Virus record (IMG/VR): IMGVR_UViG_3300040815_001211
Span: 1 to 24,046 of that record
Strand: one strand, 5' to 3'
DNA from: a virus
DNA length: 24,046 nt
Shown here: positions 2,257-23,257 of the stretch, piece after piece
Layout of the letters: every line of letters begins with the position of its first letter
Position numbering within the stretch: the stretch's first letter is position 1
The notes under the pieces: generated by a model
The model's input: the letters and a program-made list of their open reading frames with translations, nothing else
Databases searched by the model: none
What the model was told of the DNA's origin: nothing
Translations under genes and position numbers: made by a program

Positions 2257-14392
<12,136 letters not shown>

Positions 14393-14394
<2 letters not shown>

Positions 14395-14418: not shown

Positions 14419-15141
14419 ATGGCAATTCAAACAATAAATCTTGGCAGTGTAGCAAATGATGGCACAGGTGATGACTTAAGAGAAGCATTTGAGAAAGTTA
14501 TTTTTAACTTTAATGATTTAGATAATAGATCACCTGAAGCAACTACTGTACTTAATTTAGGTACTGGCGAAGGACTGTTTTCAAATAAGAATAATGCAGA
14601 ACTGCAATTTAAGTCACTTGTTGCAGGGAACAATGTTACATTGTCTTCGGATTCAAACGAACTTACTCTTGATGTAAATGCCGGAGTAACACAATTTGAT
14701 ATTGCTGCTGATTCTGGTAGTGTAACAATAACTGAAGGTAGTACTGTTACAATAGCAGGCGGAACACTAATTACTACTGCCCGAAATGGCAATACTATTA
14801 CTATTGATTCAAGTGCATTAAGCAAGGTAGAAGATGATCCTGCTCCTAAACTAGCAGCAGGTCTTAATGCTGACGGGAACAACCTAGGAAATGTTGGATT
14901 AATAAACGCAACAACAGTAACAGCAAATTTTAACGGAAATCTTACAGGCAATGTACACGGTATTGACATAAGAGATCTAAACTATAATAGAGACCCTGAC
15001 AATTGGGATTTCAGCGGAATCGCTCCAACTTCAGTTACAAATTTATGGGACTTTTTGTTTGCAACTACCAAAGTTGATTTTGGCACTATATCTGGCAATA
15101 ACGTTAACGTAAGTTTAGATTTTGGTACTATCAACATCTAA
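14419..15141 (+). CDS. Virion structural protein sharing N-terminal motif with the giant protein
   Basis: The protein has 240 residues and an AGGAG ribosome site (14408-14412). Residues 1-35 (MAIQTINLGSVANDGTGD, then DLREAFEKVIFNFNDLD) closely match the first residues of the giant protein, so the two probably share an attachment or trimerisation element. Residues about 45-150 are Thr/Gly/Asn-rich beta sequence (LVAGNNVTLSSDSNELTLDV, GSVTITEGSTVTIAGGT). NGNLTGNVHGIDIRDLNYN follows at about 173-191, and a hydrophobic-aromatic C-terminus (TNLWDFLFATTKVDFGTI) closes the chain. It has its own late promoter and sits between two other structural genes. A fibre or baseplate role is inferred from sequence character and position. 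Confidence 0.75.
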   Translation: MAIQTINLGSVANDGTGDDLREAFEKVIFNFNDLDNRSPEATTVLNLGTGEGLFSNKNNAELQFKSLVAGNNVTLSSDSNELTLDVNAGVTQFDIAADSGSVTITEGSTVTIAGGTLITTARNGNTITIDSSALSKVEDDPAPKLAAGLNADGNNLGNVGLINATTVTANFNGNLTGNVHGIDIRDLNYNRDPDNWDFSGIAPTSVTNLWDFLFATTKVDFGTISGNNVNVSLDFGTINI

Positions 15142-19022: not shown

Positions 19023-19580
19023 ATGCTTATGAAAACAGATTCTCTCGGTATTCCACGATTTTCTAATCGTGATCTAATAGATATGATATACACTGGACAT
19101 ATCGGAAAGTGTCACATAGTTCTTTGTGACGAATCAGATGATGTAGATAAGTTTAATACAGCAATGAGCGAGCAAGGACTTCCTAAACTACAAAAGTACA
19201 TTCCACTAGATGTAGATCAAAAGACTTTTGACGGTGTATGTCAAAGTGAATGGTTTATGCCTGATGAATATAAAGAGATTAATCCAAATAAATGGTTAGA
19301 AGCAAAACTAATGGAAAAACTACAAATACAAGATCCTGTGGCTTTGCGTGATACACAAGAATGGATCCGTGTAACCGAAGAACTTACAGAATACTTTGGT
19401 CGTGGTATGTATTCATTATTACAGTATATGATATATCTTGTGGACTTTATGCGTGAGAACGACATTGTATGGGGTGTAGGTAGAGGTAGCTCTGTAGCAT
19501 CATATGTGTTATACTTAATAGGCGTACACAAAATAAATTCAATCCAATATGACCTGGATTGGCGAGAGTTCTTGAGATAA
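19023..19580 (+). CDS. DNA polymerase III alpha (DnaE)-like fragment without catalytic aspartates
   Basis: The protein has 185 residues. Residues about 115-185 (WIRVTEELTEYFGRGMYSLL, YLVDFMRENDIVWGVGRGSS, ASYVLYLIGVHKINSIQYDL, REFLR) line up with the bacterial replicase stretch in which a helical pair leads into GPGRGS...S...Y.L.I...DP...L.FERFLN. The GRGS motif is at 153-156. The protein stops right where DnaE would continue to the PDFDVDF motif carrying two catalytic aspartates, so it cannot polymerise on its own. Residues about 70-80 (GVCQSEWFMPD) may match the upstream DnaE helix. ATG 19023 is used; ATG 19029 is an alternative, and neither has a strong ribosome site. It lies between late promoters and looks intact, so it is a family in its own right rather than a decaying copy. 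Function unknown. Confidence 0.7.
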   Translation: MLMKTDSLGIPRFSNRDLIDMIYTGHIGKCHIVLCDESDDVDKFNTAMSEQGLPKLQKYIPLDVDQKTFDGVCQSEWFMPDEYKEINPNKWLEAKLMEKLQIQDPVALRDTQEWIRVTEELTEYFGRGMYSLLQYMIYLVDFMRENDIVWGVGRGSSVASYVLYLIGVHKINSIQYDLDWREFLR

Positions 19581-19583
19581 ATA
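19576..19583 (+). promoter_or_regulatory. T4-type late promoter GATAAATA
   Basis: GATAAATA overlaps the TAA stop of the DnaE-like gene and lies 27 bases before the ATG at 19611, with AGGAG at 19599-19603. Confidence 0.68.
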
Positions 19584-19610: not shown

Positions 19611-20012
19611 ATGGCACTAAAAGGTAATGCAAGAAAAACATATAAAACAATGCGAGGAAAATCTATCGATATGGACTTGTTACAGCAACGTAACGAATTA
19701 ACTCCAGCCGTTGGTAATGCTCGTGTTAACGCTCGTGGCGATGAATTAGGTCCGGGTGGACAAATTATTCGTAACAAAGAAGATGTACTTAGAGAGTACT
19801 ATGAGACTACTAATCGTGTTCCAGACGAGCCGATGCCCACAGCAGAAGTAAAGCAAGATGCTCCGGCACCTAAGGCAACAAAGACTAGAGCTCAAAAGAA
19901 AGTAGAAGAAAAGGGGATCGATGAAGATCCTAAAATGGCAGCTGAGTTCGGCGACGATGAAGATTGGGTCGAAGATGCTGACGGAAATTTTGTACCAAAA
20001 AGCGAGGCGTAA
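19611..20012 (+). CDS. Conserved T4-like marine phage protein, acidic C-terminus
   Basis: The protein has 133 residues and an AGGAG ribosome site (19599-19603). Residues 1-25 are basic (MALKGNARKTYKTMRGKSID). Residues about 30-66 hold a well-ordered motif, LTPAVGNARVNARGDELGPG followed by KEDVLREYYE, which I recall as conserved in T4-like cyanophages without a known function. Residues about 70-105 are a Pro/Ala/Lys linker, and the end is strongly acidic (EFGDDEDWVEDADGNFVP). It has its own late promoter, and the GroES-like gene starts on the base after its stop, so the two are probably made together. An assembly or scaffold-type role is possible but not shown by the sequence. Confidence 0.72.
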   Translation: MALKGNARKTYKTMRGKSIDMDLLQQRNELTPAVGNARVNARGDELGPGGQIIRNKEDVLREYYETTNRVPDEPMPTAEVKQDAPAPKATKTRAQKKVEEKGIDEDPKMAAEFGDDEDWVEDADGNFVPKSEA

Positions 20013-20393
20013 ATGGACATTAATGCTGGTTCAACCGGACTACCTACAAGAGTCAAAGGTAGTGTAAGACCAATCCGCAATCGAGTAATTGTAACCGATA
20101 TGGAGTTTGGTGAACAAGTAACACAGGGTGGAATTATTGTTTCATCTGATGACGGTAAAGATAGAGGTATTAAACCTCGTTGGGGAAGAGTAGTTGCAAA
20201 AGGCAACGAAAATAATGATCCTTACGAAATTGGAAATTGGATACTTGTAGAGCACGGTCGTTGGACCCGTGGTTATGAAGTTGAGACAGATAGCGGTTCT
20301 ACTGAAACTATGAGAACTGTAGAAGCAGAAAGTATTTTGGCCTGGCAAGAAGATACACCAGAAGATGTTGTATATGGAAATGCTACAAAATGA
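20013..20393 (+). CDS. GroES-like co-chaperonin (functional analogue of T4 gp31)
   Basis: The protein has 126 residues. Residues about 18-64 follow the GroES pattern: VRPIRNRVIVTDME (first strand), a mobile-loop-like GEQVTQGGIIV (33-43) corresponding to the loop that docks on GroEL, and RWGRVVAKGN. YEIGNWILVEHGRW (71-84) matches the GD.V.+..+ strand. The C-terminus ESILAWQED matches the family's closing strand. T4 gp31 replaces host GroES so that the larger major capsid protein can fold; a similar role is likely here. It is longer than GroES (~97 residues), with an N-terminal extension of ~17 residues and a C-terminal tail. The start abuts the previous stop with GCGAGG nearby as ribosome site. 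It overlaps mazG by ATGA. Confidence 0.82.
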   Translation: MDINAGSTGLPTRVKGSVRPIRNRVIVTDMEFGEQVTQGGIIVSSDDGKDRGIKPRWGRVVAKGNENNDPYEIGNWILVEHGRWTRGYEVETDSGSTETMRTVEAESILAWQEDTPEDVVYGNATK

Positions 20394-21695: not shown

Positions 21696-21856
21696 TTAGA
21701 TGGTATGACTATCCGGCGGCGATAGCATTTGCATATCTTATTATGTATTTTTTCTTTACAATTCCTATAGCAGGTGCTATACTAGCATATATGGTATACG
21801 AAGTGTTGTGGGGTCAACTTTATTGTCAATATAGATGGAAGCAGGAGAACGAATGA
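21692..21856 (+). CDS. Small membrane protein conserved in T4-like marine phages
   Basis: The protein has 54 residues and is coupled to both neighbours by ATGA overlaps. It begins MIRWYDYPAAIAFAYL and has a long hydrophobic stretch (about residues 8-38, MYFFFTIPIAGAILAYMVYE) that can form one or two membrane helices. A short charged tail follows (YRWKQENE). I recall proteins of the same MIRWYDY...IP..GA..AYM.YE layout directly before gp44 in other marine T4-like phages, with no known function. An inner-membrane location is inferred from hydrophobicity. Confidence 0.75.
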   Translation: MIRWYDYPAAIAFAYLIMYFFFTIPIAGAILAYMVYEVLWGQLYCQYRWKQENE

Positions 21857-22767
21857 AAGAGTTATGGGTAGAAAAGTATCGTCCTAAAACAGTAGATGGC
21901 TACGTATTTCGCGATGACGCACAGCGTAATCAGGTAAATACCTGGATTAAAGACAAAACTATTCCGCATTTGCTGTTTAGTGGTAATGCAGGTATTGGTA
22001 AAACAACACTTGCAAAATTATTGTTTAATGAACTAGAAGTAAATGATTTAGACATACTTGAAATAAACGCATCGAGAACAAACAGTGTAGATGATGTTCG
22101 CGATAAAATTGTAAACTTTGTACAGATGATCCCATTTGGGGACTTTAAGGTTGTATTACTAGATGAAGCTGACTATCTTAGCCCAAACGCTCAGGCAGCG
22201 TTGCGTGGTGTTATGGAAGAGTATCATACTACTGCTCGTTTCATTCTTACTTGTAACTATCCAAATCGTGTTATTCCCGCTTTGCATAGTAGGTGTCAAG
22301 GTTTCCACATTGCTAAAATTGACCAAACTGAGTTCACAGCTAGAGTTGCTGAAATACTTATTACCGAAGGTGTTACTCCTGATTTGGATACACTCGATAC
22401 CTACGTAAAAGCAACCTACCCAGACTTGCGTAAATGTATTAACACGGTACAGATGAACAGTGTTGACGGCGCTCTTACTAAACCTAATGAGGGTGACACA
22501 GGAGAAAGCGACTGGAAACTTGAAATGGTTGAGTTGTTTAAAGCAGGTAAGATTCAAGAAGCACGTAAACTATTATGTGGTGCAATACGTCCAGAAGAAA
22601 TGGAAGAAGTTTATCGTTGGTTATATGACAATATTGAATTGTTCGGAAATGACGAACAACAAGATAAAGCAGTACTAATTATTAAACAAGGGTTAGTGGA
22701 TCACACCCTAGTAGTTGATCCTGAAATCAACTTAGCCGCAGTGCTAATTAAACTAGCAAGACTATAA
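21853..22767 (+). CDS. gp44: Sliding-clamp loader large subunit (T4 gp44 type)
   Basis: This 304-residue AAA+ ATPase of the RFC small-subunit/gp44 family loads the sliding clamp on primer-template DNA with gp62. Seen: the N-terminal WVEKYRPKTVDGYV (5-18); Walker A GNAGIGKT (44-51); Walker B VVLLDEAD (100-107); sensor 1 TCN (133-135); and the SRC arginine-finger motif (146-148). The length agrees with T4 gp44 (~319). ATG 21853 is used because AGGAG at 21843-21847 precedes it and it overlaps the previous stop (ATGA); the in-frame ATG at 21835 lies before that ribosome site. gp62 and the clamp gp45 are not in the window. Confidence 0.95.
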   Translation: MKELWVEKYRPKTVDGYVFRDDAQRNQVNTWIKDKTIPHLLFSGNAGIGKTTLAKLLFNELEVNDLDILEINASRTNSVDDVRDKIVNFVQMIPFGDFKVVLLDEADYLSPNAQAALRGVMEEYHTTARFILTCNYPNRVIPALHSRCQGFHIAKIDQTEFTARVAEILITEGVTPDLDTLDTYVKATYPDLRKCINTVQMNSVDGALTKPNEGDTGESDWKLEMVELFKAGKIQEARKLLCGAIRPEEMEEVYRWLYDNIELFGNDEQQDKAVLIIKQGLVDHTLVVDPEINLAAVLIKLARL

Positions 22768-22904
22768 TGAATAAGACATTAAAAAAACTAAAATTAATTC
22801 CAGGTAAGAAAAAAAGTAGCGAGATGATAACTTGGGGCATAATTGGCTGGACAGTACTTCTTATAATGATTGTACTTTCAGTACTAACTGGAGAAGTATA
22901 TTGA
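22767..22904 (+). CDS. Small single-span membrane protein
   Basis: The protein has 45 residues. A basic N-terminus ([19 protein letters not shown]) is followed by one membrane helix, about residues 21-40 ([20 protein letters not shown]), and a short end TGEVY. The positive-inside rule suggests an N-in orientation. The start shares one base with the stop of gp44 (TAATG), and the stop overlaps the TTG start of the ferredoxin (TTGA). It belongs to no family that I recognise. Its place directly before the ferredoxin gene hints at, but does not show, a link to it. Confidence 0.68.
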
Positions 22905-23257
22905 CTTACTTAGTAACAGATAACTGTATTAAATGCAAACACACAGACTGTGTAGCAGTTTGTCCAGTAGATTGTTTTTATGAAGCTGAAAATTTTCTTG
23001 CAATTAATCCTGAAGAATGTATCGATTGTGGTGTATGTGTTCCAGAATGTCCGGTTGGTGCTATATTTGAAGACACTGAGTTACGTAGTGAAGAACGAGA
23101 AAAATGGGAAGATATAAATCGTCAAGTGGTTGATTCGGGTGCTCCGGTACTTGCTGAACAAAAAGATCCCCTAGACGATCACGCTGATTGGGATGGGTAT
23201 CCCAACAAATATGAAGAGTTTGGTATTATACCAATTAAGGACATTACAAATGGGTAA
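22901..23257 (+). CDS. fdxA: 7Fe ferredoxin (FdxA type), TTG start
   Basis: The protein has 118 residues when started at TTG 22901. This start gives [17 protein letters not shown], the standard FdxA N-terminus, with GGAG at 22890-22893 and a TTGA overlap with the upstream stop; the longer frame from ATG 22832 would add unrelated residues. Cysteines at 9, 17 and 50 fit the [3Fe-4S] ligands and those at 21, 40, 43 and 46 fit the [4Fe-4S] ligands, with Cys12 and Cys25 also conserved. The pattern [13 protein letters not shown] is complete. The C-terminal ~60 residues are acidic, and the last 25 ([14 protein letters not shown] and on) are not a family part that I recognise. It carries electrons in the cytoplasm; the partner enzyme is unknown. 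It sits between clamp loader and dihydrofolate reductase genes in an early or middle chain. Confidence 0.92.

Follow-up and report, generated by a model that had tools for sequence, protein, structure and literature searches.

A DnaE-like gene of an uncultured marine phage as the likely N-terminal half of a split, minimal Pol III alpha

In 2021, a split minimal Pol III alpha was described in group 2.2 jumbo phages, with two proteins proposed to reconstitute the enzyme; that paper also raises the coexistence of Pol III and family B replicases in one replicon (PMC7824862). Earlier, in 2017, CBB_328 of phage vB_PcaM_CBB had been described as truncated (PMC5259590). No experimental test of the two-protein pair was found in our literature search.

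Here we analyze a 24,046-nucleotide stretch of DNA (the window; positions 1 to 24,046 of IMG/VR virus record IMGVR_UViG_3300040815_001211) that carries a gene of this kind, referred to below as frag1. We consider frag1, with good confidence, to be the N-terminal half of a minimal Pol III alpha-type enzyme kept as two stand-alone proteins.

A stand-alone DnaE relative in the window

The open reading frame (ORF) of frag1 runs uninterrupted from ATG to TAA, in agreement with the intact frame reported in the initial annotation. The features of the gene, in window coordinates, are as follows.

19023..19580, plus strand: frag1, likely N-terminal (GRGS, nucleotide-binding) half of a split minimal Pol III alpha, PHROG 11127, 185 aa
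19473..19493, plus strand: GVGRGSS motif, frag1 residues 151-157
19566..19577, plus strand: EFLR end, frag1 residues 182-185, counterpart of DnaE FERFLN and conserved C-terminus of the family

Residues 110-184 matched Pfam PF07733 (DNA_pol3_alpha) with an E-value of 1.1e-9, above the gathering score. This was the only Pfam match of the 185-residue protein; the other parts of full-length DnaE (PHP, thumb, fingers and beta-binding/OB) were not found. The NCBIfam model polc was also matched (E=1.7e-8), and PHROG 11127 (DNA polymerase, 171 positions) was matched up to its last position (E=8.6e-38). These searches bear out the original description of a stand-alone DnaE relative extending through GRGS to a FERFLN-like end, and they place its stop, as had been claimed, ahead of PDFDVDF: the profile of the frag1 family extends to residue 392 in E. 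coli alpha and to residue 406 in M. tuberculosis DnaE1, in the FERFLN region and a few residues short of the catalytic motif. The sequence G-x-G-R-G-S is invariant in the 136 non-redundant relatives (136/136), and frag1 has no catalytic aspartate of its own.

Scanning IMG/VR with frag1 identified 527 relatives, 80 of which were retrieved, and a more distant profile scan supplied 80 further loci. Some 60 phage records and over 500 metagenomic virus stretches contain a relative. The carriers include the T4-like jumbo phages RaK2, 121Q, GAP32, CBB, PA5oct/MIJ3, XacN1, RAS14, Atu_ph07, Phosso, SCTP-2 and Vibrio 2.275.O, and frag1 is also carried by 141-kb Alishewanella phages.

A second gene with the catalytic residues

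When the genomes of frag1-carrying phages were searched with PF17657 (DnaE finger domain), small ORFs were found in XacN1 and RAS14 that belong to PHROG 11778 (frag2). The aligned frag2 family starts at DIDID and continues with H..G, K-x-D-x-L (with the third catalytic aspartate), IRPxK and KKxHAxxYA, the counterparts, in this order, of the PDFDVDF, HAaG, KFDFLGL, finger RPG and FNKSHA motifs of DnaE; a profile match confirmed that the motif order is that of DnaE. Copies from the marine relatives of the window open with MPDIDIDF, and the start of the gene in one of them, the contig G001, reads MPDIDIDFANRD. Of 154 non-redundant copies, 152 cover the D-x-D-x-D position and all of them have the motif; for K-x-D-x-L, RP and the SHA-type histidine, the count is 153 of 153 in each case.

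The match of the frag2 profile to M. tuberculosis DnaE1 falls into four collinear segments, the first of which starts at residue 412; with the frag1 profile ending at 406, the junction lies at FERFLN|PDFDVDF. Relative to DnaE1, frag2 lacks approximately 100 residues (the thumb) and approximately 88 residues between RPG and FNKSHA. Together the two proteins comprise about 370 aa and correspond to the DnaE palm and part of the fingers; the PHP, thumb and C-terminal domains are missing. Modelled singly with AlphaFold2, both halves gave confident structures (pLDDT 90.2 for frag1 and 93.9 for frag2). Foldseek comparison with the PDB returned only Pol III alpha/PolC as high-probability entries for both halves, with query-normalised TM-scores of up to 0.44 (frag1) and 0.56 (frag2) and modest E-values of 4e-3 and 3e-3. 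Family C polymerases have their GRGS region at the phosphates of the incoming nucleotide and hold the metals with three aspartates. Because the GRGS region is on frag1 and the aspartates are on frag2, a working site would need both halves.

A direct search of 10 complete phage records found both halves in all 10. Matches to frag1 at E<1e-6 numbered 68 in the phage collection, including 6 in Bacteroides phages, which we rejected as carriers of the split form: the one examined encodes a 1274-aa full-length, unsplit DnaE. Setting these 6 aside leaves 62 frag1 matches against 63 for frag2, an equality judged from listings and genus counts rather than accession by accession, and, with many records being near-identical, these co-occurrence counts are not independent. 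The genus counts agree except for one extra Klebsiella record for frag2; the 109-kb Klebsiella record W12-3 has frag2. Ten long IMG/VR contigs (≥200 kb) were considered, of which seven held both halves, two frag1 alone and one frag2 alone; the single-half contigs, among them one of 359 kb (frag1 only) and one of 262 kb (frag2 only), may be incomplete.

Two relatives of the window, the 236-kb marine contigs G001 and G027, each hold frag1 and frag2. The frag1 and gp44 proteins of G001 are 75% and 89% identical to those of the window, respectively, and in G027 the halves are about 122 kb apart. The 24-kb window does not span the frag2 site, and its own phage presumably carries the gene outside this stretch. 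In RaK2, PA5oct, Phosso and G027, the genes on the 3' side of frag2 are a small one in reverse orientation and one for a virion structural protein, with the primase gene within about 3 kb. The family B polymerase expected of a T4-like phage is likewise not encoded inside the window, and its coexistence with frag1 was confirmed in G001-G004 and eight complete phages; in G001 it is an 899-aa DNA_pol_B frame.

A bacterial reservoir of frag1 was considered and rejected: scanning 84,980 genomes gave only 9 matches, mostly on MAG contigs that may be binned phage, and the five MAGs checked (5/5) also contain frag2. A contig of 335 kb assigned to a Neomarinimicrobiota MAG (L347; PBPT01000016.1) encodes a DnaE half 65% identical to that of the window and is probably a jumbo phage binned with that MAG.

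Genomic neighbourhood and competing explanations

Upstream of frag1 are virion genes, and downstream are replication and nucleotide genes (GroES-like, MazG, exonuclease and gp44 clamp loader). The features on which the comparison of gene order and promoters relies are listed below.

529, 1832, 14393, 15148, 18128 and 19576, plus strand: NATAAATA boxes
19576..19583, plus strand: GATAAATA, late-promoter-like box overlapping the stop codon of frag1, 35 nt ahead of the companion gene
19611..20012, plus strand: companion gene, phrog_14844 by PHROG match, directly 3' of frag1 in relatives
20013..20393, plus strand: GroES-like co-chaperonin (Cpn10; PHROG 931 head morphogenesis), conserved block
21835..22767, plus strand: T4 gp44-like clamp loader, conserved block

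The companion gene directly follows frag1 in 116 of 124 IMG/VR loci, with GroES next in 107 of 118, and the order DnaE half, phrog_14844, GroES-like, gp44 is common to the window and most named jumbo phages examined. The phrog_14844 profile scored no match in XacN1, RAS14 or the Alishewanella phages; in XacN1 and RAS14, the gene adjoining the DnaE half has a start similar to that of phrog_14844. The phrog_14844 protein contains the motifs [IV][DN]x[DE] and NARGD and a disordered-looking C-terminus, and no relative of solved structure was found for it.

The six NATAAATA copies on the plus strand of the window resemble T4 late promoters, and each lies 25-35 nt ahead of a gene start. When one mismatch was allowed, the total count of TATAAATA in the window was not above chance, so the argument for late promoters rests on the position of the boxes and not on their number. 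No late-type box directly precedes frag1 in the window, and in marine loci such a box was rare directly before either half (1 of 54 and 0 of 67). The earlier assignment of frag1 to a late unit with virion rather than replication genes needs correcting: the gene sits between virion genes on one side and replication and nucleotide genes on the other, and it has no late-type box of its own.

Elsewhere in the window, a 4045-aa tail-fibre-like protein (2257-14394) and the product of the next gene (14419-15141) have similar N-termini, the latter NDGTGDDLREAFEKVIFNFNDL, perhaps a shared attachment segment. An IscA/ErpA-type iron-sulfur carrier (1857-2234; TIGR00049, E=1.8e-23) and a ferredoxin-like protein (22832-23257) are possible auxiliary iron-sulfur genes.

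Since the missing aspartates open a second, co-occurring gene, frag1 is most naturally read as one half of a two-gene palm rather than as a dead remnant. Sequence comparison establishes that the two halves are homologous to one DnaE and meet at FERFLN|PDFDVDF, that the catalytic and GRGS residues are invariant, that the genes co-occur and that gene order is conserved, and we regard it as very probable that frag1 and frag2 are one split enzyme. That they form an active heterodimer is a step further, which these comparisons make reasonably likely. The protein encoded far off near the primase gene, frag2, brings DIDID, the third catalytic aspartate and reduced fingers with no thumb; the two proteins would bind each other and rebuild a single palm active site; and the heterodimer would extend primers as an auxiliary polymerase (repair, gap-filling or hand-off) beside the family B replicase, clamp loader and primase. 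Bulk replication would be a less likely role than an auxiliary one, given the loss of the thumb, PHP and clamp-binding parts and the coexistence with a family B polymerase. With the thumb and clamp-binding parts missing, polymerase activity is itself not assured. Conceivably, phrog_14844 replaces lost functions (thumb or clamp contact), and the two DnaE halves and this companion would then form a three-subunit, thumb-less Pol III-type enzyme beside the family B replicase, a suggestion we put forward only tentatively.

Instead of acting as a polymerase, the two halves could together bind nucleic acid or nucleotide in a structural or regulatory capacity, for example in head assembly through the GroES-like neighbour. 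The position of frag1 next to GroES and virion genes, that of frag2 next to a virion structural gene, and the missing thumb would all fit such a role, but invariant catalytic residues would not be expected without catalysis, and gp44 and primase genes are likewise nearby; we judge it improbable. The initial annotation had proposed a catalytically dead piece of the palm, serving either to bind primer-template or nucleotide or to lure host replisome partners as a decoy. Taken alone, frag1 indeed has no catalytic aspartate, but this proposal did not survive the finding, in relatives of the window, of a co-occurring gene that begins where frag1 ends and opens with the invariant aspartates; moreover, a decoy might be expected to keep the PHP, thumb and C-terminal domains that are absent here. 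We consider it very improbable.

The small size of frag1, together with the CBB copy having been called truncated in PMC5259590, could point to a full-length DnaE shortened by frameshift, nonsense mutation or assembly error. Against this, the end point proved to be conserved when homologues were surveyed: among 172 complete relatives, 157 have no residue past the profile end and the rest have at most 6. Neither a fused ORF nor a frame running on into the catalytic motif was found among 346 ORFs (173 frag1 and 173 frag2). The dN/dS of frag1 against close relatives is 0.11-0.19, indicating purifying selection, and the downstream gene order is conserved. A full-length DnaE elsewhere in the same genomes was also ruled out, PF07733 being matched just once per record in 13 records. 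The shared end point, the G-x-G-R-G-S invariance and the dN/dS values rule out a recent truncation, and we give that explanation almost no weight. We likewise discount almost entirely the idea that phrog_14844 provides the missing catalytic strand through its SIDMDLL motif, because, although [IV][DN]x[DE] lies near the protein start and frag1 adjoins nearly always, the first D is N in Phosso and the probable RAS14 equivalent, the second is E in several phages, the rest of the protein does not resemble DnaE, and the true DIDID motif sits in frag2.

Read as part of a split enzyme, an apparent dead fragment becomes half of a testable one, in which a Pol III-type active site of unusually small size should be rebuilt from two purified proteins, each about 185 residues long. 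Uncultured marine viruses carry the gene widely, which makes it a common phage factor rather than an exotic one. The split enzyme also touches on the question of how a bacterial replicase (Pol III) and an archaeal/eukaryotic one (family B) ended up in the same replicon.

Comparison with described split and full-length enzymes

Full-length DnaE of bacteria and some phages, such as the 1274-aa protein of Bacteroides phage SJC03, has GRGS, PDFDVDF, KFDFLGL, RPG and FNKSHA in the same order as the split halves but, unlike them, combines these motifs in a single chain that also has PHP, thumb, complete fingers and C-terminal domains. Cyanobacterial DnaE is encoded by two distant genes, cut near FNKSHA, and a split intein splices the products into one chain. 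Two distant genes are common to that system and the phage pair, whereas the phage cut falls before PDFDVDF and both halves are too short to accommodate an intein, frag1 having just 0-6 residues beyond its profile end. CBB_328 (172 aa) belongs to the same N-terminal-half family as frag1 of the window, and PMC5259590, which calls it truncated, apparently does not mention a second half. The closest system is that of PMC7824862 (PHROG 11127 and PHROG 11778), which comprises the same two pieces in distant genes, with the PHP, thumb and C-terminal domains lost and a family B polymerase present. The window differs in belonging to an uncultured marine cluster, and the phrog_14844 companion and the exact junction are apparently absent from that description. 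The split minimal Pol III is already known in outline, and the window adds an uncultured marine cluster to it; new are the exact junction, the residue invariance, the wide distribution and the companion phrog_14844.
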